Shown here in pieces: positions 2,403 through 15,998 of a stretch of 64,000 nucleotides of DNA. The stretch is from a virus. The stretch spans positions 1-64,000 of the IMG/VR virus record IMGVR_UViG_3300036832_000974. One strand, written 5' to 3'. The translations under genes were made by a program, and so were the position numbers. The notes under the pieces were generated by a model that was given only the letters and a program-made list of their open reading frames with translations, was not told the DNA's origin and did not search any database. Position 1 is the first letter of the stretch. The number at the start of each line of letters is the position of its first letter.

Positions 2403-2897
2403 TCAGAACGGGATATCGTCGTTCATGTCATCTTTGAGCGGCGGCCGCTCGTCGCTGCGGTGTGAGCCGTAGCCGCCATTAGCGCTGCGATCGACCTGCT
2501 TCGGCGGCCGCTCGTCGTCGTGGCCGTAGTCACCGCGCTGACCACCGTCTCGGCTGTCGAGCATGATCAGCTGGCTCTTGAACTGCCGCAGCACCACGTC
2601 AGACGAGATGCGATCCTTGCCGTCGCGATCCTGCCACTTGCGATATTCGAGCTGCCCCTCGACATAGACCCGCCGACCCTTGCGCAAATACTGCTCGGCG
2701 ATCTTGACCAGCTGCTCGGGCCAAACCGTGATGTTGTGCCACTGGGTGCGCTCGCGCTTCTCGTTGGTGCCCTTGTCGGTCCATACCTCTGACGTCGCGA
2801 TCGAGAAGTTCGCCACCGCACTGCCATCAGCCGTGCGACGGATCTCGGGATCCTTGCCAAGATTTCCGATCAGGCAAACTCGATTGAGAGTCATCAT
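2403..2897 (-). CDS. ssb: Single-stranded DNA-binding protein
   Basis: 164 residues. The OB-fold begins with LNRVCLIGNLGKDPEIRRT and continues through ATSEVWTDKG, TQWHNITVW and VYVEGQLEYRKWQD, typical of bacterial-type SSB (residues 1-110). A Gly/Asp/Arg-rich linker follows, and the protein ends in DDMNDDIPF, the acidic tip that docks helicases and repair enzymes. SSB coats single-stranded DNA during replication and recombination and would serve the helicase, RuvC and RecE/RecT genes of this phage. ATGATG gives two possible starts three bases apart; the first has the better spacing to AGGGA. Confidence 0.97.
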   Translation of the reverse strand: MMTLNRVCLIGNLGKDPEIRRTADGSAVANFSIATSEVWTDKGTNEKRERTQWHNITVWPEQLVKIAEQYLRKGRRVYVEGQLEYRKWQDRDGKDRISSDVVLRQFKSQLIMLDSRDGGQRGDYGHDDERPPKQVDRSANGGYGSHRSDERPPLKDDMNDDIPF

Positions 2898-3217
2898 TGG
2901 GGAGTCCCTTCTTCTTGTAGCGGCGCTAGCGCCGCCTTCTCAGCTTCCAGAATCGCAATCCGCTCGCGCATCCTGGCGATCTCTGCCTTGATCATCGGCG
3001 ACGCCTTCGCCAGCATGGCGTCCATCTGCGCGAACAGCGTCTTGGCAATGCGCTCGTAATGCTCCAGCGGCATCGACAGCTGCTCCAGCAGCTCGATCTC
3101 GCAGTAGATGTCGCCCGCATGATCAGCCAGCCACTTGGCATCATCCCAGCGCATCACGCCGTTCGCTTGCCCGGTCGACTTCACGATCAGCCGCAGCCGG
3201 TCGATGTGCTTACCCAT
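2894..3217 (-). CDS. Coiled-coil protein, unknown function
   Basis: 107 residues from MGKHIDRLRL. The C-terminal half (MDAMLAKASPMIKAEIARMR ... ERIAILEAEKAAL) is a likely coiled coil; the N-terminal half has WDDAKWLADHAGDIYCEIELLEQL. Its stop overlaps the ssb start, so the two are translated together. The start region is nearly identical to the start of an 11-codon reading frame at 4549-4584. No family recognised. Confidence 0.65.
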   Translation of the reverse strand: MGKHIDRLRLIVKSTGQANGVMRWDDAKWLADHAGDIYCEIELLEQLSMPLEHYERIAKTLFAQMDAMLAKASPMIKAEIARMRERIAILEAEKAALAPLQEEGTPQ

Positions 3218-3231
3218 TGTTCGCCCCGCAT
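3203..3231 (-). repeat. Repeated translation-start module, copy 1
   Basis: 29 bases covering ATGCGGGGCGA, the ATG and the codons for MGKHI (minus strand) match 4570-4598 at 27 of 29 positions. The conserved GGGGCGA sits at ribosome-binding distance from the ATG. Confidence 0.75.
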
Positions 3232-3262
3232 GAACGCGTGGTGCGGCGAAACCTCATGCCAC

Positions 3263-3727
3263 TCACCAACCTGCTTGACCAAGCCGGACAACGAGACGGC
3301 CGACGCGAACCGTTTCCTCCCCCTTCTGAATCAGGTACTCACCGGCTTCGACGCACTCATCGTGCGAAATCTCGTCAGGCAACAAGTCGACAAATTCGTT
3401 GCGAGATGGAACGAAGACCCTCGTGCGATCGATGTCCTTGATTATTTCGCGCTTGTCTTCAGGCCAAAGCGCCAATTGATCGGGACCGGGACGATCCTCG
3501 TAGACACCCTCTTCGATGGCCTTGAGATATTTCCTGATCTCCACATCGAGACCACCGGACAAGAGCCTGCGTTTTATTTCAATGTCGTTATCGATTCTTC
3601 GATAGAAACGACCTCGCAACATGGCGTGCCTGACGTGAGGCGCGGAATTGGGATGATCACTGGCTTTTCTGGCTTCGGTGATCATCGCATGCAGTGCATT
3701 AAGCAGCCGAGTCTTTGGTGTTGCCAT
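3263..3727 (-). CDS. Unknown protein
   Basis: 154 residues from ATG 3727 (MATPKTRLLNALHAMI), whose start lies inside the 3' end of the upstream gene (29-base overlap). The sequence is charged and largely helical: HAMLRGRFYRRIDNDIEIKRR, YLKAIEEGVYEDRPG, LWPEDKREIIKDIDRTRVFV. The end carries YLIQKGEETVRVGRLVVRLG. A 45-base gap separates it from the coiled-coil gene. No domain recognised. Confidence 0.65.
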   Translation of the reverse strand: MATPKTRLLNALHAMITEARKASDHPNSAPHVRHAMLRGRFYRRIDNDIEIKRRLLSGGLDVEIRKYLKAIEEGVYEDRPGPDQLALWPEDKREIIKDIDRTRVFVPSRNEFVDLLPDEISHDECVEAGEYLIQKGEETVRVGRLVVRLGQAGW

Positions 3728-4355
3728 TTGATCTCTCCAAACAGGACTGCCACGATTTGAGATTCCTGATCGCATTCGCACATTCTTCGATCAGCTGCTC
3801 AGCTGGATAAGGGCCGCGGGTTGCCAGCACTTCGAGACCGCAAGCTGGCAATGCAGCAAGATGCGCCACTGCATGAGCCCAATCGAGATACTCGTTGCGA
3901 TGTGGTTCCGGTTCGACCTTGCGTTTGCGCGTGCCTTCGTCAGCAAGCTCTTTGACACTCGCTGGCCGCGGCCGCTCGACCATGGACTCGAATGTGTCTT
4001 CCGGAACGCTAGCAACGCGCAACATCGTCCTGGCTTGCGCTGGCGTCAGATCAGCGGAAGCGGCCATTTCGCTGCGAGAACTGAATTGCACCTTGGTGCC
4101 TTTCAGCTCTTTCGGACTTGTACCCCGCTTATTTGGATTCGCTTTCTTCACCTGCGCCAGCAGCTCGCCACCGCGCCGGATCGCGCGATCGAGAATGCGC
4201 TGCGCCATGTGGATCATTTCCTGATCCTTCATCTGCCGCCCATAGCTCGCCAGCGCCGAGGCTTGGCTTTTCCATTTCACACACTCGTCGACGCGCACGC
4301 ATTGCGCCAATGCGCGCTTGGCGCTCACGTAATTTGTCGGAAGCTTTGCTTTCAT
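3699..4355 (-). CDS. Stand-alone paralogue of the N-terminal domain of the MT-A70 methylase
   Basis: 218 residues from ATG 4355. Residues 1-75 (YVSAKRALAQCVRVDECVKW, QMKDQEMIHMAQRILDRAIRR, GGELLAQVKKA) line up with residues 1-80 of the adenine methylase at 10912-12015 (SAARKAMANLVRVDEVKNIR, AKDRELLAEATEVKMRATRR, IGELMEEMKKA). Both continue with a Lys-rich linker and a 'S..S..LTPAQARTMLRVASVPEDTFESMV'-type segment, comparable to 'SVIPEKEFEKKVSEAI' in the methylase. This N-terminal module is common in phages of alphaproteobacteria and is probably DNA-related, but its biochemical role is not known. The C-terminal 90 residues are unique. Stop-start coupling (ATGA) joins it to the zinc-ribbon gene upstream. 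Confidence 0.7.
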   Translation of the reverse strand: MKAKLPTNYVSAKRALAQCVRVDECVKWKSQASALASYGRQMKDQEMIHMAQRILDRAIRRGGELLAQVKKANPNKRGTSPKELKGTKVQFSSRSEMAASADLTPAQARTMLRVASVPEDTFESMVERPRPASVKELADEGTRKRKVEPEPHRNEYLDWAHAVAHLAALPACGLEVLATRGPYPAEQLIEECANAIRNLKSWQSCLERSNGNTKDSAA

Positions 4356-4549
4356 GCGTCCGGCCCCTCGACCCAGTGCACCTTGCCGCATTGCGTGCAG
4401 CGATACTGCAGATCGACGTAGCCGCCGCAGTGCGATTCCCAGTACCGATACATCATCCGCGCCGCGCCGCACTTCTGGCAGATCGCGCCAGCGCTCAACG
4501 TCCAGCCGCCGAACGTGCCTTCGCTGTCTTTCATCTCGCGGGTGTGCAT
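4352..4549 (-). CDS. Zinc-ribbon protein
   Basis: 65 residues from ATG 4549, which overlaps (TGATG) the stop of an 11-codon reading frame. CQKCG at about residue 22 and CTQCG near the end frame a single four-Cys zinc ribbon around MMYRYWESHCGGYVDLQYR. Such proteins often bind nucleic acid; no specific function can be given. Translation may depend on the leading short frame, which has the better ribosome-binding site. Confidence 0.6.
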   Translation of the reverse strand: MHTREMKDSEGTFGGWTLSAGAICQKCGAARMMYRYWESHCGGYVDLQYRCTQCGKVHWVEGPDA

Positions 4550-4584
4550 CACGACACCATTGCCAGCTTGATGTGCTTGCCCAT
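4549..4584 (-). other. 11-codon reading frame ahead of the zinc-ribbon gene
   Basis: ATG GGC AAG CAC ATC ... TGA encodes MGKHIKLAMVS. Its start lies in the 29-base module repeated at 3203-3231, and its TGA overlaps the ATG of the zinc-ribbon gene. It is either a leader peptide that couples translation or a remnant of a duplicated gene start. Confidence 0.5.
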
Positions 4585-4598
4585 TGCTCGCCCCGCAT
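4570..4598 (-). repeat. Repeated translation-start module, copy 2
   Basis: 27 of 29 bases match 3203-3231. Only the first five codons (MGKHI) are shared; after that the two sequences diverge. Confidence 0.75.
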
Positions 4599-4599
4599 A

Positions 4600-4711
4600 A
4601 AGAGCCGGGCGCCCCAATCCCGGAGGCGCCCAGCTGTGGCATCTGATTCTCGTGTCGCCCAGCTGGGCGATACTGGATCGTCTCGGGCCATCTCCCTGTG
4701 TGCGAACTGGA
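4600..4711. promoter_or_regulatory. Intergenic segment with palindromes
   Basis: Within an otherwise gapless operon, about 110 bases carry no gene. They hold a perfect 14-base palindrome, CGCCCAGCTGGGCG, at 4656-4669, and related CGCCCAGCTG at about 4627-4636 and GCCCAGCT at about 4713. This looks like an operator with repeated half-sites. A matching promoter could not be identified with confidence. Confidence 0.45.
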
Positions 4712-5294: not shown

Positions 5295-5511
5295 ACTCGG
5301 CCCTCACGATCCGGATCGCGACCTTCGCCGCGCTCACCATCGTCGAGCACGCCGGCATGTCCGCACGCTGGCCGCAGGCACACACCGGCACGCCGTACAC
5401 CGCCATGCAGATCTCCGTCGCCAGCCGCCGCGTCAGCGGATCCGCAGCAAAGTCCGCGCCCTCCACATGCGCGGCACGCCGACGTAGCTTCCGCGGCTTA
5501 GCCGTCGTCAC
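5287..5511 (-). CDS. Small basic protein with Cys residues
   Basis: 74 residues from GTG 5511, which overlaps the stop of the upstream gene (GTGA). The N-terminus is basic (TTAKPRKLRRRAAH), the middle has ATEICMAVYGVPVCACGQRAD, and the end MVSAAKVAIRIVRAEYA is helical. No domain recognised. An ATG further upstream would overlap the neighbour by about 40 bases and was not preferred. Confidence 0.5.
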   Translation of the reverse strand: MTTAKPRKLRRRAAHVEGADFAADPLTRRLATEICMAVYGVPVCACGQRADMPACSTMVSAAKVAIRIVRAEYA

Positions 5512-6056
5512 GCGCGCACCCGGATATCGGGAAACCGCGTGCGCCACGCCCCCATCAGCGCACTACGCACCGCAAACGACGATACCGAGATCGGCGACGC
5601 CGCATAGAGCAGCTGCAGCGACCCGGGCGCGTCGATCAGCACCACGCCGCGCCGATCGTCCTGCAGCCATTCCAGCGGCGTGTCGTGAACGCGAAGCGAC
5701 TCGCCAACATGCGGCGCCAGCACGTTCTCTTCGCCGAGCATCGTCACCCGACCAAGCCACAACCCAAGCTGCTTGGTCGACGGCTTCCACGCAGCAAGAT
5801 CCGCCACCACGCGATCCTCGTCGAGGCACACGAAGATCAGCGCGGAATGCGTGCCGGTTGGATCGAACTCAAAGTGCGGGCCGCTGAACAACACAGCTCC
5901 CGCCATCACCTGAAATAGCTTGCGCTCCGAATTAAACTTGAGCAGCTCCGGCGCTACCCCGAGCTTGGTGATCTCGGCTTCGCGCAGCGCGCGGCAATGG
6001 CGCCCATACGCCGCGATGACATCGTTGAGCATGACATGATCGACGACGCTATCCAT
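5508..6056 (-). CDS. Unknown protein downstream of the helicase
   Basis: 182 residues from ATG 6056, overlapping the helicase stop by eight bases. It has an alpha/beta look: LLKFNSERKLFQVMAGAVLF, HSALIFVCLDEDRVVADLAAW, RRGVVLIDAPGSLQLLYAAS. Its position directly after the helicase suggests a partner in DNA metabolism, but nothing in the sequence shows a catalytic site. Confidence 0.6.
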   Translation of the reverse strand: MDSVVDHVMLNDVIAAYGRHCRALREAEITKLGVAPELLKFNSERKLFQVMAGAVLFSGPHFEFDPTGTHSALIFVCLDEDRVVADLAAWKPSTKQLGLWLGRVTMLGEENVLAPHVGESLRVHDTPLEWLQDDRRGVVLIDAPGSLQLLYAASPISVSSFAVRSALMGAWRTRFPDIRVRA

Positions 6057-7716
6057 GGCGCTCGCACTCCTTCTGCCGCGCGTACGCAATGTTGCGGCTC
6101 TTCACGAACGCATAGACCTCGGTGGTGATGAAATCGGACGGGCCAACGTGGTGAAGCAGATTCGGCCACACCCCAAACTTGGCCTTGTAGGTGTGCGCCT
6201 CCCAGCCCCTGCTCTTGTTGTAGTCGATCTGATAGCGCAGCAGCTGCGCATAGAACTCGGCCTTCTCGCGCATCGTGTAGACACGCGGCCCGCCCTTGTT
6301 GCCCATCGTGATCTTGCCGCGCTCGACCTCGACCAGCTCGCCGTCGGACTCAATGATCGGCGACAGCACCTTGAACTCATGGCCGCAGTGCGGGCAGCAC
6401 TGGCACTTCTTCTCGATCAGCATCGCGCACTTGCTGCACGTCTTCGGTAGCGGCTTCTTGTTGTCCTGCCGCTTGCGTTTGCGATCGCCGTCATCAAGCT
6501 CGTCGTACTCGATGTCGGTCACAAACCCGAGCCGCGAGGTCGTGTCCGAGTGGTCGAGGATGATCGCGTACGGCTTGCCAGCTGCAGTGCGTAGCGCGCG
6601 ACCAATGATCTGCTTGTAAAGCATCTCCGATCGCGTCGGTCGCGCCAGGATCAAACACCGCACATCCCAATCGGTGCCGGTCGTCAACGTACCGACATTG
6701 CACACCACCTCGATCTCGCCGGAATGAAACTTCTCACGGATCTCACGCCGCCCTTCCAACCACTCGATCGAGCCGCCCCTCGCTTTCACCTTCTCGGCGT
6801 CCTTGGTTAACATGCCGGTGCTGGCATCCTGATAGGCCGCTCGAACGCCAGCCTCCCTGAAACGAGCTGCCAACGTCTGTGCATGCGCACAGTCGACACC
6901 AAACACCAGCGTTTTGCCCTTGCCCCAGCGCTTCTTGTAGGTGTCGATGATGTCGGCGGTCAGCGTGCCTTGCTGCATCCGTTTCGCCGTCTCGCCCTCG
7001 TCGAAATCACCACGCACGATCTTGACGCCTGTCATGTCGGGATGCCCGGTTGCAAACGTGCGGAACGGGCACAGAATGCCAGCGTCGATCATCTCCTGCG
7101 TCGTGCCAGTGCGAATCAACGTCTCGAACACACGGAACGGCTGAAACGCAACGTCGTCGTGCTTGCGCTTCCAATCGTCAAGAAAATCTTGCGGATACTC
7201 CTCAAGCGGACCGCCGAGACCCTTGGTGTATGGCGTCGCCGACAAGCCAATGAACAACCGACCGCGATCGACCACCGCGTAGTTCTCGTCGCGCTTCGGA
7301 CCGTACAGCTTGAGCAAATGCCGATGCGCCTTGTGCAGCACATGGCATTCGTCGATCACGAACACGTCGGCATCGGGAAATGTTTGGCGCTTCGCCGCGG
7401 TCTGAATCGACACGATCTGCACCGGCTTCGACCAATCGGTGAGCTGGTGATTTTGCTGAACCACTCCGATGTCGGTGAAGCCCTCGTTCGCAAACGCCTC
7501 CACGGTCTGGTCGATCAGCGACAGGTTCGACACCACGAACGCGACCCGCTTCCACACCCCCTTCGATAGCGCCGCATCGAAAATCCCGGCAGCCAAGTGC
7601 GTCTTGCCGCTGCCGGTCGGGCCCGAAATCACCATGCGGCGAATGCCCGAGCGGTACGACTCCCGCATCGCGTCCAAGGCGATCGCGTTGTGGCTCCAGA
7701 GGGTCCGCGTTAGCAT
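6049..7716 (-). CDS. Superfamily 2 DEAD/DEAH-type helicase with C-terminal zinc ribbon
   Basis: 555 residues from ATG 7716. Walker A GPTGSGKT (about residues 32-39), Walker B/motif II DECH (about 121-124), motif III SATPY, and the RecA-like second domain with VCNVGTLTTGTDWDVRCLIL and motif VI QIIGRALR are all present. A four-Cys ribbon (CSKCAMLIEKKCQCCPHCGHEF) and a C-terminal region follow. This is the phage SF2 type that unwinds or remodels branched DNA using ATP, and it is expected to act with SSB and RuvC. A TTG 75 bases upstream (7791) is an alternative start, but the conserved core begins right after the ATG and ATGCTAA couples it to the small gene 7710-7904. Confidence 0.9.
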   Translation of the reverse strand: MLTRTLWSHNAIALDAMRESYRSGIRRMVISGPTGSGKTHLAAGIFDAALSKGVWKRVAFVVSNLSLIDQTVEAFANEGFTDIGVVQQNHQLTDWSKPVQIVSIQTAAKRQTFPDADVFVIDECHVLHKAHRHLLKLYGPKRDENYAVVDRGRLFIGLSATPYTKGLGGPLEEYPQDFLDDWKRKHDDVAFQPFRVFETLIRTGTTQEMIDAGILCPFRTFATGHPDMTGVKIVRGDFDEGETAKRMQQGTLTADIIDTYKKRWGKGKTLVFGVDCAHAQTLAARFREAGVRAAYQDASTGMLTKDAEKVKARGGSIEWLEGRREIREKFHSGEIEVVCNVGTLTTGTDWDVRCLILARPTRSEMLYKQIIGRALRTAAGKPYAIILDHSDTTSRLGFVTDIEYDELDDGDRKRKRQDNKKPLPKTCSKCAMLIEKKCQCCPHCGHEFKVLSPIIESDGELVEVERGKITMGNKGGPRVYTMREKAEFYAQLLRYQIDYNKSRGWEAHTYKAKFGVWPNLLHHVGPSDFITTEVYAFVKSRNIAYARQKECERHG

Positions 7717-8474: not shown

Positions 8475-9089
8475 CTATACGCACACCCCGACTTGCGTAA
8501 TACGTCGCAGCATCGCCCCGGGGCGCAGCTTGGCGGACTGGTAAGCCCATAGAGCCGCCGCATCCCCGGCATTGTGATCGGGAACGTTCCAGCCGAGCTG
8601 CCGACAGCGCCGCATCACCGCTTCCTTGGCGATGGCAGACGGCAGTCGCTTGTGGCCAATGAAGAGGTTGCGAATGTCGCGAACGTCGTGGATGCGGTGG
8701 TCGCGAATGCCGCACTGCTCGGCGGTACCGAGAATGACTGCGGCGAGGCCAAACAGCAGCCACCCTTCCTGCTGCGACTTGAATGCCTTCACCGAGATCG
8801 GCGCTTCAACGGCCACGAGATCGGGTGCGTGATCAGAACGGAAGATCTCGATCGACCAGCGCAACGCGGCGGCGAAGCGTGCCCCGTTGCTGGCGCCATC
8901 CTTGCCGAACTTGATCGAGCCGAACTCGGGGGCGTCGGCTCCGAGCGGACCGCGGGCCCATCCGGTACGGGTCGCTATGTCGAGCGCGATTATATCGATC
9001 AGCTTGACAACCCCAACTTTGCAACCACTTATTGCATAGACGCCCCGGCCCGCCTCTCCTAAAGGCGGACCGGGACTTGACAACAGCAA
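8475..9089 (-). CDS. RuvC-like Holliday junction resolvase
   Basis: The ribonuclease-H-fold motifs are clear: IIALDIATRTGWARG (first Asp), DLVAVEAPISVK (Glu), and the C-terminal DHNAGDAAALWAY with two Asp, matching the four acidic metal ligands of RuvC. Between them lie SQQEGWLLFGLAAVI and the basic KRLPSAIAKEAVMRRCRQLGW. Phage RuvC proteins cut branched recombination or replication intermediates. The 5' end is uncertain: the frame offers only TTG codons (9089, 9083) ahead of the conserved core, and an AGGAGAGG precedes no standard start in frame. It is divergent from the HTH gene at 9107. Confidence 0.88.
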   Translation of the reverse strand: MLLSSPGPPLGEAGRGVYAISGCKVGVVKLIDIIALDIATRTGWARGPLGADAPEFGSIKFGKDGASNGARFAAALRWSIEIFRSDHAPDLVAVEAPISVKAFKSQQEGWLLFGLAAVILGTAEQCGIRDHRIHDVRDIRNLFIGHKRLPSAIAKEAVMRRCRQLGWNVPDHNAGDAAALWAYQSAKLRPGAMLRRITQVGVCV

Positions 9090-9106
9090 CCGCTAGGACG
9101 GCCGCT

Positions 9107-9799
9107 ATGCCCGACAAGACTTCTACCACAACAGCCAAGGTTGTCTCCTTGCCGGTTCGGCTTGTGTGCTCAGCTTGTGGAGCAGACGGCCAAGGATCGT
9201 GCCAATGCGGAGCGCCCTACATTCCAAAGTCCCAGCGGGCCGCCGAGGCCATCGCCGCCAACCCGGAAAAGTCTGACCGCGCCATCGCGGCAGAGATCGG
9301 GGTGAGCCATGAAGCTGTCAGTAAGGTTCGACGTTCAACTGTCAACTTGTTGACAGTTGATGCCAAGCGCACCGGCCGCGATGGCAAGACGCGCAAGGTG
9401 CCAGAACGTGCACAGTCGCAGCGCAAGGCTGGCCCCAAGCCCGGCCAGAAACAACACCAAGCTTCGGTGAACTCACGTCCCGAGGATTGGGAGCGGTTCA
9501 AGGCCGTCGCAGCAAAGGAAGGCATATCGGCTGCCGACAAGCTAGGCCGCTACGTCGAGAGCGTTGCAAACGATCACACAGAAAAAACGGTCAGCATTCA
9601 CGAGCTGATCGAAAAGCTCGTCCCACTGGCAGAGCAAATCCGCGACCAAGGAAAACGACACGCCGCACTTGTCTCACAAGGTGCGCTGGTGATCGTCGCT
9701 TCCGAAATTCGCAGATTGCTGGACAAGTGGGCCGAAGGCGACGCGTCCATTCGTCGGGTTAATGGTCACGTCGTCCCCCCGAAGCACCCGGCAAAATGA
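9107..9799 (+). CDS. Helix-turn-helix DNA-binding protein with Cys cluster
   Basis: 230 residues from ATG 9107 behind AGGACGG. Residues 18-40 hold a Cys cluster (CSACGADGQGSCQCG); residues 45-75 hold the HTH (AANPEKSDRAIAAEIGVS, then HEAVSKVRRST), a form common in alphaproteobacterial phages and often followed, as here, by VDAKRTGRDGKTRKVP. The C-terminal 100 residues are helical (WERFKAVAAKEGISAADKLG, HELIEKLVPLAEQIRDQGK). A perfect 26-base palindrome lies inside the gene just after the HTH codons. The pairing with the ParB-fold-like gene after it suggests a regulator or partition-like pair. Confidence 0.75.
   Translation: MPDKTSTTTAKVVSLPVRLVCSACGADGQGSCQCGAPYIPKSQRAAEAIAANPEKSDRAIAAEIGVSHEAVSKVRRSTVNLLTVDAKRTGRDGKTRKVPERAQSQRKAGPKPGQKQHQASVNSRPEDWERFKAVAAKEGISAADKLGRYVESVANDHTEKTVSIHELIEKLVPLAEQIRDQGKRHAALVSQGALVIVASEIRRLLDKWAEGDASIRRVNGHVVPPKHPAK
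9335..9360. promoter_or_regulatory. Perfect 26-bp palindrome inside the HTH gene
   Basis: Arms TCAACTGTCAAC (9335-9346) and GTTGACAGTTGA (9349-9360) flank TT. It is unusual to keep 12 perfectly complementary bases inside a coding region (codons for ST-VNLLTVD). The size and symmetry fit an operator or a parS-like site bound by the protein of the surrounding gene or of its neighbour. Confidence 0.7.
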
Positions 9800-10693: not shown

Positions 10694-10915
10694 TCACAAA
10701 TTGAGAAACATCTGCAGATCGTTATCATCCGCCGCCGGTGCCTGTGGTGCCGGCGGCGGTGGCTTTGGTTGCGCCCATGGGGATACCTGCTCGGCCGTGC
10801 GCAAAACCTGCAGGCACTTCCCCATCTCGTCCAGCTCAATACTGCCAGGGGGCAACCAACCAACTTTGGTCAATTGCCCCGGCAATACCAACCCGATCTT
10901 TGGTGTCTTGGTCAT
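10694..10915 (-). CDS. Small protein with Pro-rich linker
   Basis: 73 residues, coupled to the methylase gene (its stop is five bases from the convergent plus-strand gene). TPKIGLVLPGQLTKVGWLPP begins a possible beta structure; then a Pro/Ala-rich linker and the end DDNDLQMFLNL, which resembles a short linear docking tail. The methylase stop/start overlap is upstream of it (TGA/ATG), so it is translated after the methylase. Wait-free placement suggests a partner or modulator of that enzyme; no family recognised. Confidence 0.5.
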   Translation of the reverse strand: MTKTPKIGLVLPGQLTKVGWLPPGSIELDEMGKCLQVLRTAEQVSPWAQPKPPPPAPQAPAADDNDLQMFLNL

Positions 10916-12015
10916 TCAGCGGCCACCGTATGGTGCTCGACCGGCGCGGGCGCTGGCGGCGGCACTGGCGTTGCCTCAACCGGCGGCGCCGCTGGCGCAG
11001 GCTGGGCCTCGTTACCGTGCGCGTCCCACCCGGGTCGTGCCGGGCCGCGGCGGTTCAGCTCGATCTTTGGCAAATCGGGATAGGACTTCTCGATCATCTC
11101 GATGAACTCGACCGGCTTCTCGCTGTGGGCACCGCGATCGGCGACAATCACCGATGATGGCGCGATCTGAGTGGGCATCGCAGGCTTGCCCTTGGTGCCG
11201 ATCAGCAGCAGCTCGTGCTGATTGCGGGCCCAGTAGCCGGTGCCGATCCGCGTCTTCACCCACACCATGCTGCTGACGTATTCGAACTCCCAAGCGGCCA
11301 TGACGTCGAGCGCATCGTGCAGCATCGGTACCGTTGCCCACAGGTACAGCACGCAATCATCGGCTGCGATCTTCGCCACCGGGATCGCCCGGATCTCTGC
11401 GGTCGTCTGGACGAGATAGTGATTGGCTGCAGCGCGGTCCTGGCCGGTCTCCTCGCCCCACGTCTCGAACTGCCAACCCGGGTCGGCGAGGATCACGCCG
11501 TACTTCTTGTCGGGCAGCGCCGCAATCCGCTTCGCCAGATCTTGCTGCTTCTTGATGCGCGCTGCGGTCTTTGCAGCGTTGCGTTCAGCCTTGGCTTCCT
11601 TGAGGAAGGCCTTGTCACCATCAACCGATGCTGTCGCAAGCCTGATGGCCTCGCTGACCTTCTTCTCGAATTCCTTTTCCGGAATCACCGACATCTTACG
11701 CGCAGCTTTTGCGAGATCCTTGTCGATTTTTCTATCGATCAATTTGGGGGCGGTCGCCCCTTTTTTCGGTCGCCCCTTTTTGGCCCGTTCGTTGGCCTTC
11801 TTCATTTCCTCCATCAACTCACCGATACGGCGGGTCGCTCGCATCTTTACTTCAGTCGCCTCAGCAAGGAGTTCACGATCCTTTGCCTGAAACGAGTACA
11901 CTTCCATCGCGAGTGCCTTGTCACGAATGTTCTTCACCTCATCAACTCGAACTAGGTTCGCCATCGCCTTACGGGCCGCCGAGTATCTCGCCGGTAGCTT
12001 TATTGTTGGCTTCAT
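10912..12015 (-). CDS. MT-A70 family adenine-N6 DNA methyltransferase with extra N-terminal module
   Basis: 367 residues from ATG 12015 (alternative ATG 12048; the downstream one matches the paralogue's start). Residues 1-150 are the charged helical module shared with the protein at 3699-4355. Residues 165-330 are the MT-A70 fold: YGVILADPGWQFETWG (motif IV), DCVLYLWATVPMLHDALDVM, VWVKTRIGTGYWARNQHELL, GAHSEKPVEFIEMIEKSYP and IELNRRGPARPGWDAHGNE. The usual DPPW, often DPEW in rhizobial relatives, is DPGW here. The enzyme should methylate adenine in DNA with S-adenosylmethionine, protecting phage DNA or altering host methylation-dependent control. There is no neighbouring endonuclease, so it is an orphan. 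The C-terminus is Pro/Ala-rich. Confidence 0.9.
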   Translation of the reverse strand: MKPTIKLPARYSAARKAMANLVRVDEVKNIRDKALAMEVYSFQAKDRELLAEATEVKMRATRRIGELMEEMKKANERAKKGRPKKGATAPKLIDRKIDKDLAKAARKMSVIPEKEFEKKVSEAIRLATASVDGDKAFLKEAKAERNAAKTAARIKKQQDLAKRIAALPDKKYGVILADPGWQFETWGEETGQDRAAANHYLVQTTAEIRAIPVAKIAADDCVLYLWATVPMLHDALDVMAAWEFEYVSSMVWVKTRIGTGYWARNQHELLLIGTKGKPAMPTQIAPSSVIVADRGAHSEKPVEFIEMIEKSYPDLPKIELNRRGPARPGWDAHGNEAQPAPAAPPVEATPVPPPAPAPVEHHTVAAE

Positions 12016-12093
12016 CCCAGCCTTGTCATACGCAGTCAGTTGTCTCATGGTGTGGTTTCCCCAATGTTAAAGCCGCAAGAAGAAAGACCCCAA

Positions 12094-12498
12094 ATGGGTA
12101 AGCATTTTGATGCCGAGGCCGCCGAGGAAGGCAAGCGCGAAGGCATGGCCCGAGCAGAACAAGGGTCTGATCTGGATTGGTGGCATGTGATGCTGGCGTG
12201 CATCAAGGCGGTGGCGGAACGCAGGCCGTGGTTCATCTTTGACGCCGTCGAGAAGTATCGGATTGAGCACTATCCGCACCACTTCACACCAGAGAACCGA
12301 GCCCACGGCCCGCTAATGAAAGAAGCGCAGCGCCTTGGCTATTGCGAGCCAACCGACGAATGGCACGAGTCCAAGCAGAGACAGAATCACCGACGTCCGA
12401 TGCGGATGTGGGAAAGCTTGATTTACAAGGGACCCACTCCTCGCGTGCGGCCGCGCCGCCGCCGGATCGATCCGCACCAGTTCGATATGTTCAGTTAA
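12094..12498 (+). CDS. Unknown protein, divergent from the methylase
   Basis: 134 residues from ATG 12094, nine bases after AAGAAGAAAG; further upstream starts lack a ribosome-binding site. It begins MGKHFDAEAAEEGKREGM; then WWHVMLACIKAVAERRPWFIFDAVEKYRIE; then MKEAQRLGYCEPTDEWHESKQRQNHRRPMRMW, and a basic end. The middle could be a winged-helix-like fold, but this is a guess. It overlaps the 3' end of the GapR-like gene on the other strand by eight bases. Confidence 0.6.
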   Translation: MGKHFDAEAAEEGKREGMARAEQGSDLDWWHVMLACIKAVAERRPWFIFDAVEKYRIEHYPHHFTPENRAHGPLMKEAQRLGYCEPTDEWHESKQRQNHRRPMRMWESLIYKGPTPRVRPRRRRIDPHQFDMFS

Positions 12499-12901
12499 CG
12501 GCGGCGAGCTGATCGATCGGGTTTGCCCTTCTCGTCGGCCGTCGGGTCGCACGCTCGCGGGTCTCGCGCTCGACAGCAGCGATGCCGAGCGGCAGATCCT
12601 CCAGCCCCTCGACCGCGGTGACAATCTGATCGTGCGCCGCCATCAGATCAGACTCCAGTTCTCGCCGGTTGGCGTTGAGCTGGCGCTGTAGCTTCAGGGT
12701 CTTGATCGCCCTTTGCATAGCCTCGCGCGGAATACCGTAGTCGGCGGCTTCCTTGATGACGTCTTTGATGTTGTTGCGGTAGCCGCGACATGTGTTCATG
12801 TAGGCGCCCTTCTCGGACTCCATGTCGCGGTAGTAGCTTTCGATCCGCCGCATGAACGGCTCGACCTGCTCGCGGCCGATCTCGTTGGTGGTGTCGACCA
12901 T
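12491..12901 (-). CDS. GapR-like (DUF2312-type) nucleoid-associated protein
   Basis: 136 residues from ATG 12901 behind AGGGGGAAATAC. Residues 8-90 follow the GapR pattern: an N-terminal helix (REQVEPFMRRIESYYRDMES, then EKGAYMN), a spacer, and IKDVIKEAADYGIPREAMQR followed by AIKTLKLQRQL, comparable to the RIE..EK..IKEVY.EAK.NGFD..A...I sequence of GapR. GapR clamps overtwisted DNA ahead of replication forks and RNA polymerase in Alphaproteobacteria. The phage version has an insertion between the two conserved parts and a longer C-terminus. It may act on phage DNA or compete with host GapR. The match is by pattern only. Confidence 0.5.
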   Translation of the reverse strand: MVDTTNEIGREQVEPFMRRIESYYRDMESEKGAYMNTCRGYRNNIKDVIKEAADYGIPREAMQRAIKTLKLQRQLNANRRELESDLMAAHDQIVTAVEGLEDLPLGIAAVERETRERATRRPTRRANPIDQLAAVN

Positions 12902-12912
12902 GTATTTCCCCC

Positions 12913-13167
12913 TCAATCGCGGAAGATGTCCGGCCGCATCACTTCGCGCTTGATGCCAAATTTACGTTCAAGGCTGGAGCAATGCTCGACCGGGATTCGG
13001 CTCCACTGTAAGACAGCTTGACGCGTGATTCCACCACAAACCTTGCGAACAATGTCGTGATTTTCTGGCGTCTGGAAGAAGATCAGCGCGTCTTTGTGCG
13101 ACTTGATTCGCCTCGGATTCGACATCAGCTCCTCGGGCAAGACCTTCCTTTTGCTCGGGCGGGCCAT
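12913..13167 (-). CDS. YdaS/Cro-like repressor
   Basis: 84 residues from ATG 13167 (MARPSKRK) behind AAAGG. The C-terminal domain (ALIFFQTPENHDIVRKVCGG, ITRQAVLQWSRIPVEHCSSL, ERKFGIKREVMRPDIF) has the signature of the YdaS family of Cro-like helix-turn-helix proteins: ITRQAVxQWxRxP with a final RPDIF. Such proteins control early promoters in lambdoid and other phages. It faces the recE-recT operon across 200 bases that contain inverted operator-like sites and a promoter overlapping one of them, so autoregulation is likely. It is followed by the GapR-like gene, with a gap of 11 bases. Confidence 0.82.
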   Translation of the reverse strand: MARPSKRKVLPEELMSNPRRIKSHKDALIFFQTPENHDIVRKVCGGITRQAVLQWSRIPVEHCSSLERKFGIKREVMRPDIFRD

Positions 13168-13208
13168 CAATGGATTCCTTTGCTGCTTCAATGACGTTCC
13201 CTGGCACC

Positions 13209-13279
13209 TACATAGGCATCCACACTTTTGTTTGCAACGGCGCCTTGCCAGAAGCTTTTATAAATGCAAGGTTGCAAAC
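13209..13279. promoter_or_regulatory. Operator pair and minus-strand promoter between repressor and recE operon
   Basis: GTTTGCAAC (13230-13238) and GTTGCAAAC (13271-13279) are exact inverted copies flanking 32 bases; inside, CCTTGC and GCAAGG repeat the symmetry. On the minus strand TTGCAA (13237-13232), 17 bases and TATGTA (13214-13209) make a plausible promoter for the repressor, with its -35 box inside the left operator. TATAAA at 13259-13264 may serve the plus strand, but no well-spaced -35 is visible. Confidence 0.65.
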
Positions 13280-13365
13280 CGTGGCCCAGCGCCACTCGGG
13301 CCCGGCCTCTCTCATTTCGTTCCCGGTTGGATTGGTCGGGCCCTGACCATCAGAAGGACATCGCC

Positions 13366-14328
13366 TTGAAATCTGTACCTTGGGACGGCAACCCAATTGC
13401 GCGGGGCGGATGCTATTCGGGCATCACGCTCGATCAGTACCACGCCGATCTCTGCATCGGTCCGTCGACGTCGTCGAGCGCGCTGCGCCAGCTCTACCTC
13501 AAGTCGCCAGCTCACTACTACGACGAGTCCTACCTCAACCCTGACCGCTTCGTCCCCGACGAAGCAAAGATGGACCGCGAGTGGGCAGCACTTGGAAGCG
13601 CAGCCCATCACCTGCTGGTCGGCGGCGTCGGGTCGTTTCAGAATGCGTTTGTGCTGCGGCCGGACCGCGCTCCCGATGGCACCGGAAGACTTTGGAACAT
13701 GAATAACAAGAGCTGTCGAAGCTGGGTCGTCGACCGCCACCGCGAAGGCAAGATCGTTCTGACCAAGGCGCAGCTCGAAACGGCAACGCGGATGTCGACC
13801 AACTTGGGTGCCGAGCCCATTGTCACGAACGGTCTGCTCGATGGACTGGTTGAGCGCAGCTTGGTGTGGCGCGATTCCGAGACCGGCATCTGGCTCAAGG
13901 CAAGGCCGGACGTGCTGCTGCCAGCCTCGGCCGAGGTCGTCGACCTCAAAACGACGCGTTCCACCCAGTTGCCAGATCTCGTCCGCACCACCGATGAGAA
14001 TGCCTACCACATGCAGGCGGCACTGGTTGCCGACGGCATGAAGACGGTCTTCAACCTCAACATGGTCACATTCATTTTGGTGTGGCTCGAAAAACCGCGA
14101 CCGAATTGCGTGCGAATCACCACTATGAGCCAAGACGACATCGAGCGTGGCCGCAGGATGTACCGGGTGGCGCTGCGCACGTTGGCGGACTGCATTGAGA
14201 TGAATTACTGGCCCGGACCGGGCTATGACGCAGATGTTGTGGCTGAACTGAAGTTGTCGGTGGCGGCCCGCGAGCGAATCGATCAAAGGCTAAAGCGCGA
14301 ATATGGACCGAAGCGTGAGGCAGCATGA
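13366..14328 (+). CDS. RecE-like PD-(D/E)XK exonuclease
   Basis: 320 residues from TTG 13366, seven bases after AGAAGGA; longer ATG-started versions would run through the regulatory region. Early motif GITLDQYHADLCIGPSTSSS, then HHLLVGGVGSF; the catalytic core is KARPDVLLPASAEVVDLKTT (Asp and DLK of PD-D/E-x-K) followed by AYHMQAALVADGM, the Q-containing motif of this family (DUF3799/exodeoxyribonuclease VIII type). The enzyme should degrade one strand from double-strand ends and hand the 3' tail to the RecT annealase encoded 660 bases downstream. It is the first gene of the plus-strand operon. Confidence 0.85.
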   Translation: MKSVPWDGNPIARGGCYSGITLDQYHADLCIGPSTSSSALRQLYLKSPAHYYDESYLNPDRFVPDEAKMDREWAALGSAAHHLLVGGVGSFQNAFVLRPDRAPDGTGRLWNMNNKSCRSWVVDRHREGKIVLTKAQLETATRMSTNLGAEPIVTNGLLDGLVERSLVWRDSETGIWLKARPDVLLPASAEVVDLKTTRSTQLPDLVRTTDENAYHMQAALVADGMKTVFNLNMVTFILVWLEKPRPNCVRITTMSQDDIERGRRMYRVALRTLADCIEMNYWPGPGYDADVVAELKLSVAARERIDQRLKREYGPKREAA

Positions 14329-14618
14329 GCGATATCATCGTGCTGCAAGAGCCGGAGATCGTCGTGGACTGGACCACCAAGGAACCGGCCCTGCCAGCCG
14401 ATCCGTTCGACATGCTGGCGGGGTGGCCGAATAAAGGACCGACCGCGCTGCTGAGCCTGCGCCGCGGCGATTGCAAATGGCCGATCGGCGATATCCACGA
14501 GCCCGGCTTTCATTTCTGTCGGCAACCCCGGCAGGCGATACCCGGCAAGGACGGCGAACGGATGCTGCCATACTGCCCCGAGCATTGCCGCATAGCCTAT
14601 GGGGGGCGCAAAGGATGA
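14325..14618 (+). CDS. GcrA-type C-terminal domain protein
   Basis: 97 residues, coupled by ATGA to the nuclease and to the next gene. Residues 42-95 match the C-terminal domain of the cell-cycle regulator GcrA: LLSLRRGDCKWPIGDI, GFHFCRQPR, MLPYCPEHCRIAY, with the Cys/His set C..WPIGD...F.FC......YC..H. In Caulobacter GcrA this part binds sigma-70 region 2, while an N-terminal HTH recognises promoters carrying methylated GANTC. The HTH is absent; the first 40 residues are acidic and unrelated. The protein may therefore dock on RNA polymerase without reading methylated DNA. That is inference. Confidence 0.75.
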   Translation: MSDIIVLQEPEIVVDWTTKEPALPADPFDMLAGWPNKGPTALLSLRRGDCKWPIGDIHEPGFHFCRQPRQAIPGKDGERMLPYCPEHCRIAYGGRKG

Positions 14619-14791
14619 CCTTCAAGCTTGACGAGGCTTTGACCAAGCTGCGGGCCGATTACAACTGGCGGTCACCCCATGGCAAGGCGCAGCGCTCGCT
14701 CGTCATCGAGCGCCAGCTCGCCCGGCTAATCCTTATGAAGTTCGAGCCAGATCGCGCTGACCCCAACGACAAGGAATTCAACGATGGGTAG
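14615..14791 (+). CDS. Small unknown protein
   Basis: 58 residues from ATG 14615, overlapping the GcrA-like stop (ATGA). MTFKLDEALTKLRADYNWRSP and AQRSLVIERQLARLILMKFEP suggest two helices. Its end overlaps the start of the next gene by eight bases. No family recognised. Confidence 0.6.
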   Translation: MTFKLDEALTKLRADYNWRSPHGKAQRSLVIERQLARLILMKFEPDRADPNDKEFNDG

Positions 14792-14990
14792 CCCAGCGGA
14801 AGCCGAGGAATTGACTCTCCAACTGATCGAATGGATGCGCGGGAAAGAGTTAGCCAACATCATTCCTGCCTTGGTCGTGACAGCCGCCAAGGCAGCGGTT
14901 TACGCAGACGTGCCGCTCGGCCACCTCATCGCGCTAATAGACGCGGTTTATAAAGACGAAACGGGGCGCCGCAGCGCCAAAGGAAATTGA
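14784..14990 (+). CDS. Small helical protein
   Basis: 68 residues (EAEELTLQLIEWMRGKELAN, IIPALVVTAAKAAVYADVPL, GHLIALIDAVYKDE). Moderately hydrophobic helices without a clear membrane segment. It ends four bases before recT; possibly an accessory factor of the recombination genes, from position only. Confidence 0.65.
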   Translation: MGSPAEAEELTLQLIEWMRGKELANIIPALVVTAAKAAVYADVPLGHLIALIDAVYKDETGRRSAKGN

Positions 14991-14993
14991 ACG

Positions 14994-15998
14994 ATGACCG
15001 ACGAATACAATCAAGATCCCAGCATTGAACGGCGCCCGCCGCCGCGCACCGCCGAGGACCGCGAGCAGCACCGAGTAAACCTGCTGGAACAGAGCCTCGA
15101 CACCGAGCGCATTCGCGCCATCACCGTTCCCACGAGCGGCAACATCGGCGCGCTGCTGCCAACCAACGCTTTGCAGGCGGCGGATTGGGCAAAGATGATG
15201 GCAGTGAGCGGCTCGATGGTTCCGCCATTCCTGCGCGGCAATGCCGGTGGCTGCCTTGGTATCGTTTTGAAGGCGTGCCGCCTGATGATGGATCCGTTCG
15301 AGGTCGCGAACTGGGCATATGAGGTCGAACAATCGATCAAGGGATCGGATGATAAATACTACAAGGTCAGAAGCGTCGCCTACATGTCCGGATTCTACAA
15401 CGCTGTGATTCTGTCGCGCGCGCCGATCAAGGGGCGGCCACGCTATACGTATTCTGGCGAAGGGGATCAGCGTCGCTGCACAGTCTCGATCCTCATCCGC
15501 GGCGAGACCGAGCGAACCGAGATGACCACCAACACGTTGGGGGCGCTGCGGCCGGCCGCAAACGATCGAGGACAAACGCGCGGCTCGCCGCTATGGGTGA
15601 AAAAGCCGGATCAGCAGCTCGCCTACAACGTGATTCGCGACCTCGCCAAGCTGTATTTCCCCGACGTCGTCGCAGGCATCATGACCATAGAAGATCTGGA
15701 AGAGACGTTTGATGAGCCGGTCGACGTGACTCCACCGCCACTAGCGCCATCGCCGCAGCCGGAGCCTGAGCCGCAGCCGGAGACATCATCGCTGATCTCG
15801 CGGCTGCGCCCGCGCGCCACCGGCGAGGGATTCAATCACGCCAAGGAAAAGATCGAGGCCGAGATCGCCATGGCTGTGGCAGCCGCCGAAGAGGCTGGTC
15901 GCAAGAAGGAGGATGCAGGCGCCGCCCAAGCAACGGCGCCTGAGCAGGTGACGGACGATTCGGCTGCCGGGTCGTCCGTCACCGACAGGCTTCTATAA
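14994..15998 (+). CDS. RecT family single-strand annealing recombinase
   Basis: 334 residues. The conserved RecT core lies at residues 55-245: LLPTNALQAADWAKMMAVSG, GNAGGCLGIVLKACRLMMDP, WAYEVEQSIKGSDDKYYKV, YNAVILSRAPIKGRPRYTYS, KPDQQLAYNVIRDLAKLYFP. It ends in a long Pro/Glu-rich linker and a helical tail (HAKEKIEAEIAMAVAAAEEA). RecT coats single strands made by the RecE-like nuclease and anneals them to homology, giving the phage its own recombination. The tail is longer than in E. coli RecT and may contact SSB or the nuclease. Confidence 0.9.
   Translation: MTDEYNQDPSIERRPPPRTAEDREQHRVNLLEQSLDTERIRAITVPTSGNIGALLPTNALQAADWAKMMAVSGSMVPPFLRGNAGGCLGIVLKACRLMMDPFEVANWAYEVEQSIKGSDDKYYKVRSVAYMSGFYNAVILSRAPIKGRPRYTYSGEGDQRRCTVSILIRGETERTEMTTNTLGALRPAANDRGQTRGSPLWVKKPDQQLAYNVIRDLAKLYFPDVVAGIMTIEDLEETFDEPVDVTPPPLAPSPQPEPEPQPETSSLISRLRPRATGEGFNHAKEKIEAEIAMAVAAAEEAGRKKEDAGAAQATAPEQVTDDSAAGSSVTDRLL

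Follow-up and report, generated by a model that had tools for sequence, protein, structure and literature searches.

The viral record IMGVR_UViG_3300036832_000974 spans 88,795 bases, and the window analyzed here, meaning the whole stretch of DNA under study, covers its first 64,000 bases. A 38-base direct repeat common to both ends of the record (1-38 and 88758-88795) suggests a complete, circularly assembled genome. The phage carries genes for an amidase, contractile-type baseplate and tail proteins, a helicase, a RuvC-like resolvase, RecE, and RecT, together with several small helix-turn-helix (HTH)-type proteins, including one at 9032-9799. A tail-region protein is similar to proteins of Bradyrhizobium phage BDU-MI-1 and Aurantimonas phage AmM-1, the nearest named relatives, and the methylase of the window resembles that of Bradyrhizobium phage ppBdUSDA122-1 over 92% of its length. 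Judging from these nearest named relatives, the host probably belongs to the Rhizobiales. The motif GANTC was only mildly depleted (186 occurrences observed versus 239 expected).

Two divergent transcription units

Two transcription units diverge from a control region at 13192-13365. The rightward unit (+ strand) encodes a RecE/exonuclease-VIII-like nuclease (13366-14328; phrog_412, E 3e-58; DUF3799, E 3.3e-16), a stand-alone GcrA sigma-interacting domain (SID) protein of 97 residues (14325-14618), two small open reading frames (ORFs) of 58 residues (14615-14791, overlapping the SID stop) and 68 residues (14784-14990), neither with a family match, and a RecT-like single-strand annealing protein of 334 residues (14994-15998; phrog_561, E 5.4e-32; PF03837, E 4e-8) with few or no close relatives among viral and genome contigs. 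The exonuclease ORF opens at 13264, and comparison with a 46% identical relative at locus L046 pointed to TTG at 13366 as the likely start. The leftward unit (- strand) encodes a Cro/YdaS-like small DNA-binding regulator of 92 residues (12913-13191; PF15943 YdaS, E 1.8e-6, just below the cut-off; phrog_35 transcriptional repressor, E 8.5e-4), followed by a "GapR-like" protein of 136 residues (12491-12901) and an MT-A70-type adenine methyltransferase of 378 residues (10912-12048). A 152-residue ORF on the + strand (12040-12498), with a weak match to phrog_38279 (E 0.0029), is placed between the last two genes of the leftward unit, those for the GapR-like protein and the methylase.

Within the control region, a palindrome at 13230-13279, an inverted repeat with the ends GTTTGCAAC and GTTGCAAAC and two 28-nt arms that are 71% complementary, is a candidate operator. 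No GANTC was found between 13192 and 13365, which rules out a GANTC-controlled divergent promoter, and scans for consensus promoters and terminators were negative. The earlier note had placed the GcrA-like, GapR-like, and methylase genes in one region; they do fit into about 4 kb but belong to two transcription units that diverge, not to one cluster, and a single operon of the three is ruled out by strand and gene order.

A GcrA sigma-interacting domain without its HTH

The 97-residue protein had been described as a truncated GcrA that lost its HTH and kept the RNA-polymerase-binding part, and our searches bore this out. It matched PF07750 (the Pfam GcrA family; E 4.9e-10, 40.4 bits versus a cut-off of 26.9) at model positions 100-145 of 155, that is, in the C-terminal third only, and scored 34.5 bits against NF050816 (GcrA), for which the cut-off is 280. 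The closest solved sequence was GcrA chain 5yix_B (E 1.4e-6), the GcrA SID in its complex with domain 2 of sigma-70. Foldseek likewise returned 5yix_B (TMt, 0.80) and 7ye2_G as the best matches of the predicted structure, both with a probability of 1.00. The SID core occupies residues 38-93 (14436-14603), and model confidence was highest at residues 41-70 and 81-90. All ten residues that are invariant across 20 phage GcrA/SID proteins were present (C50, W52, P53, G55, D56, F64, C65, Y83, C84, and H87). Residue 66 is arginine where most relatives have glycine, and about eight residues are inserted between positions 68 and 80; both features could change the sigma interface. The 37-residue N-terminal extension had no family match and low model confidence. 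The GC content of the gene by codon position was 0.65/0.49/0.76. Identity to other SIDs was low (about 40%), and close relatives were few or absent among viral contigs, genome contigs, and cultured phages.

A six-frame search with a profile built on the HTHs of 22 phage GcrAs detected no GcrA-type HTH in the SID gene or in the whole 88,795-base record, and Pfam found no second GcrA in the record. The same search of the other stand-alone loci described below (L004/L011/L071, L072, L105, L127, L124, and L150) gave no HTH match in any frame, ruling out a frameshifted or separately encoded HTH. The SID start overlaps the exonuclease stop (ATGA), so that the exonuclease gene itself, rather than a lost HTH, occupies the DNA directly upstream. 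Collectively, the profile match, predicted fold, and residue conservation provide good support for assigning the protein as a GcrA SID devoid of its DNA-reading head.

The leftward neighbors of the SID gene

The assignment of the leftward enzyme as an adenine methylase of the MT-A70 class was confirmed by a full-domain match above the cut-off to PF05063 (positions 1-172 of 172; E 1.7e-24, 87.1 bits) and by phrog_359 (E 9e-63). The enzyme carries an extra N-terminal domain, and its motif IV reads DPGW in the alignment instead of the canonical DPPW; some phage relatives deviate at the same motif (DPPT, DCPW, DFPW, and DPAW). Neither its predicted class nor motif IV offers grounds to expect GANTC specificity. 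The N-terminal domain of the MT-A70 protein recurs in a 330-residue protein encoded at 3699-4691 (-), which has no Pfam match (E 3e-17 for the shared domain), and a related domain also occurs at 6139-6618 of locus L022.

The resemblance of the 12491-12901 product to the nucleoid factor GapR, in contrast, was not confirmed at the level of the family. The protein scored below the cut-off against both PF10073 (DUF2312; E 0.28, 11.2 bits, or 11.7 by genome search, versus 22.6) and NCBIfam PRK13694 (E 0.0012, 18.6 bits versus 94); thus, of the two profile families that the earlier note had proposed to search, GcrA was recovered above its cut-off and DUF2312 was not. Alignment by hhalign with five true GapRs from phages and bacteria gave a probability of 76.6%, with an E value of 2.2e-5 that refers to one comparison and may carry coiled-coil bias. 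Two helices were predicted (residues 10-54 and 59-97), and a solved GapR was absent from the Foldseek fold matches. As GapR identity remained sub-threshold by Pfam, NCBIfam, profile-profile comparison, PDB sequence profile, and fold, the product appears better named a helical-hairpin protein and would be a remote GapR relative at best. Few or no close relatives were found in viral contigs, genome contigs, and cultured phages; relatives occur at L046, L009, and L010. At L046 (4027-5579), the relative overlaps the gene of an N6_N4-class adenine methylase, and the window has its MT-A70 gene nearby.

Occurrence of stand-alone SIDs

A first scan yielded 38 viral loci and a wider scan 75, the latter using a query in which two rows were edited from K to R (one also from I to V) to broaden the pattern. 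In the first scan, the N-terminal HTH was clearly missing only at L011, with L025 partly masked. By profile, the wider scan identified a GcrA-type HTH at 67 of the 75 loci, another N-terminal domain at three (L073, L076, and L079), and neither at five: L071 (same record as L004), L072, L105, L124, and L127. The proteins of L004/L011/L071 and L072 have 94 residues with the SID at the very start, whereas the L124 reading frame reaches the contig end. The L105 ORF (3330-3845) continues after the SID into a long Lys/Ala/Pro-rich tail resembling those of histone H1. The GcrAs of cultured phages that were read out all had an N-terminal HTH-like region. GcrA was present in 89 of 91 Hyphomicrobiales genomes, nearly always with a full-length copy; the accessory copies in these genomes included SIDs joined to a different N-terminal domain (L146-L148) and, on a bacterial chromosome, one SID that stands alone (L150). 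The GcrA family is typical of Alphaproteobacteria. Two phages named after Synechococcus and Microcystis (PP438432.1 and PP438406.1; L066 and L069) also carry GcrA and may in fact infect an associated alphaproteobacterium.

The SIDs of L004 and L072 are 83% identical, with a dN of 0.10 and a dS of 0.45 (dN/dS, about 0.22), indicating that this lineage is under purifying selection. The observation bears on whether the window protein is a functionless GcrA remnant, a reading that we regard as highly improbable. The loss of one fusion partner and the low identity to other SIDs would be compatible with decay; however, every core residue is kept, the frame is intact, the genes of the operon are tightly packed with ATGA overlaps, purifying selection acts on a relative lineage, and the stand-alone architecture recurs.

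The variety of N-terminal domains joined to SIDs (L073, L076, L079, and L146-L148) suggests that the SID usually works while tethered to DNA. One alternative is a split activator, in which the two halves of GcrA act in trans: a DNA-binding protein encoded elsewhere in the phage, such as the Cro/YdaS-like protein or the HTH protein at 9032-9799, would bring the SID to phage promoters, where the SID would recruit sigma-70 polymerase. Fusions of SIDs to the GcrA HTH, to a tandem HTH (L006), and to the other domains listed above are consistent with such an arrangement, as are the several small HTH-type proteins of this phage and an N-terminal extension that could bind a partner. Still, we consider a split activator unlikely, as no partner was found, the extension has neither a family nor a confident model, and the divergent control region contains no GANTC.

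Association with adenine methylases and GapR

An adenine methylase gene lay within 3.5 kb of the SID at 31 of the 75 viral loci (about 40%) and a true GapR gene at six, in every case on the SID strand. As a rough control, a methylase occurred at one of nine exonuclease loci. The methylase enrichment is indicative only, because early genes tend to cluster and some of the contigs counted are related to one another. For MT-A70 genes, all six records had one within 1.5 kb against 0.55 expected from random placement, a test that inflates significance owing to the clustering of early genes and the relatedness of some records. Full-length phage GcrA genes overlapping or adjoining a same-strand MT-A70 gene formed a recurring pair (L014, L019, L024, L033, L038, and L002). 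The methylase overlapping the stand-alone SID start is a small NPPF-motif enzyme at L004 and an N6_N4 enzyme at L072; the gene directly upstream of a conserved SID was swapped between these related phages (5432-6294 and 2524-3782, respectively).

These associations bear on the proposal that the GapR-like protein, the methylase, and the truncated GcrA jointly reprogram the host cell cycle. Genes for GcrA/SID, an adenine methylase, and a true GapR do share a strand and a span of about 3.5 kb at L071, L072, L141, and L038. In the window, however, the three genes are divided between operons that run in opposite directions, the match to GapR stays below the cut-off, and nothing in the class or motif IV of the methylase points to GANTC specificity; such a joint module is therefore very unlikely here. 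The idea in the earlier note that GcrA, GapR, and adenine methylation act as a set was accordingly weakened for this phage by the sub-threshold GapR match and by the placement of the methylase and SID genes in opposite operons, whereas the recurrent same-strand pairing at other loci speaks for the association. The three-gene module has no support in the window phage, yet it has real parallels in other phages.

Proposed role of the SID protein

Among bacterial activators, GcrA provides the main example of a link between DNA methylation and sigma-70-dependent transcription during the cell cycle, and a phage protein with only the sigma-gripping half would naturally test what that half does alone. 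Residues 108-173 of GcrA bind sigma-70 region 2 and residues 1-45 read methylated DNA (PMC7403470), and GcrA is thought to contact sigma-70 first, acting only at methylated promoters (PMC7987155). We tentatively propose, with a likelihood that we place slightly short of even, that the window protein is an early phage protein that binds region 2 of host sigma-70 and competes with host GcrA; both binding and effect are extrapolated from domain homology, the predicted fold, and family biology.

In this model, the SID protein would be produced early in infection together with the RecE/RecT recombination genes and would dock, as GcrA does, on domain 2 of the housekeeping sigma in the RNA polymerase holoenzyme. 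Since the head that reads methylated GANTC is missing, the GcrA site would be filled without delivery of polymerase to methylated GANTC promoters. A SID that holds this site without bringing polymerase would lower GcrA-dependent host transcription, including that of cell-cycle and division genes, and may leave polymerase for phage promoters; in addition, open complexes could form slightly more readily at other promoters. This mechanism would not require the methylase or the GapR-like protein, whose genes lie in the neighboring divergent operon. With GcrA in 89 of 91 Hyphomicrobiales genomes, the target system is expected in such a host. Competition with host GcrA appears to be the simplest outcome, and the suggestion of the earlier note that a truncated GcrA might sequester sigma-70 or redirect GcrA promoters is plausible. 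The rarity of the stand-alone form (5 of 75 viral loci) counts against the competitor reading, as do R66 and the insertion near the putative sigma interface and the SIDs carried on other N-terminal domains.

A DNA-independent role should also be weighed, in which the SID, like Crl, stabilizes sigma region 2 and increases open complexes generally, favoring strong phage promoters. Crl needs no contact with DNA to activate through sigma region 2, whereas GcrA, RbpA, and GrgA use an additional DNA-contacting part (PMC6917491). In the GcrA family, a SID on its own would be the equivalent of Crl; the Lys/Ala-rich tail at L105 could supply non-specific DNA contact. As the DNA-contacting domain of GcrA is described as essential for activation (PMC6917491), we consider this booster role quite unlikely.

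Returning to competition for the GcrA site, the survey permits a broader and more speculative proposal. Stand-alone SIDs may constitute a recurring class of sigma-70-region-2-binding proteins, mainly of alphaproteobacterial phages, freed from GcrA several times (the window, L004/L072, L105, L127/L124, and bacterial L150) and acting as competitors, or as cofactors that work without DNA, to rewire the methylation-dependent transcription of the host, often beside a phage adenine methylase; we regard this as possible, with its chances well under even. Neither stand-alone SIDs nor the pairing of GcrA with MT-A70 turned up in our literature search, which covered a portion of the journals. A phage protein reduced to the SID would be a new route for phage takeover of alphaproteobacterial transcription, and the location of viral GcrA/SID genes beside adenine methylases offers a testable general link.

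Comparison with known systems

The window SID is most readily compared with Caulobacter GcrA (PF07750; SID of PDB 5yix, 7ye1, and 7ye2), to which it is 41% identical in the Foldseek alignment and similar in predicted fold, with the conserved Cys/His and W-P-x-G-D core in common. Unlike Caulobacter GcrA, it has no N-terminal HTH and hence would not read methylated DNA; moreover, it adds the 37-residue extension and the insertion of about eight residues, and it is phage encoded within a recombination operon. Phage phiCbK gp222 is a phage-encoded GcrA relative proposed to steer the host state (PMC3556154), but phiCbK GcrA and the other cultured-phage GcrAs examined have the N-terminal HTH-like region that is missing in the window protein. 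GANTC-specific methylases are found in replication modules of alphaproteobacterial phages, such as phiLM21 p027 (PMC5537653). These are adenine methylases of replication or early modules, comparable to the small NPPF-motif methylase before the L004 stand-alone SID, whereas the window enzyme belongs to the MT-A70 class with a DPGW motif.

Crl, RbpA, and GrgA dock on sigma region 2, as would be expected of the window SID, and Crl likewise acts without DNA contact, although these proteins and their hosts are unrelated to it. Known phage regulators such as T7 Gp2 and Xp10 P7 are small proteins that attach to RNA polymerase or sigma and not to DNA; AsiA, P7, and Gp39 act via sigma region 4 (PMC7403470). 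T7 Gp2, Xp10 P7, and T4 AsiA parallel the role proposed for the SID in being small, lacking DNA binding, and targeting host polymerase or sigma; unlike the window SID, none of them derives from a host activator.
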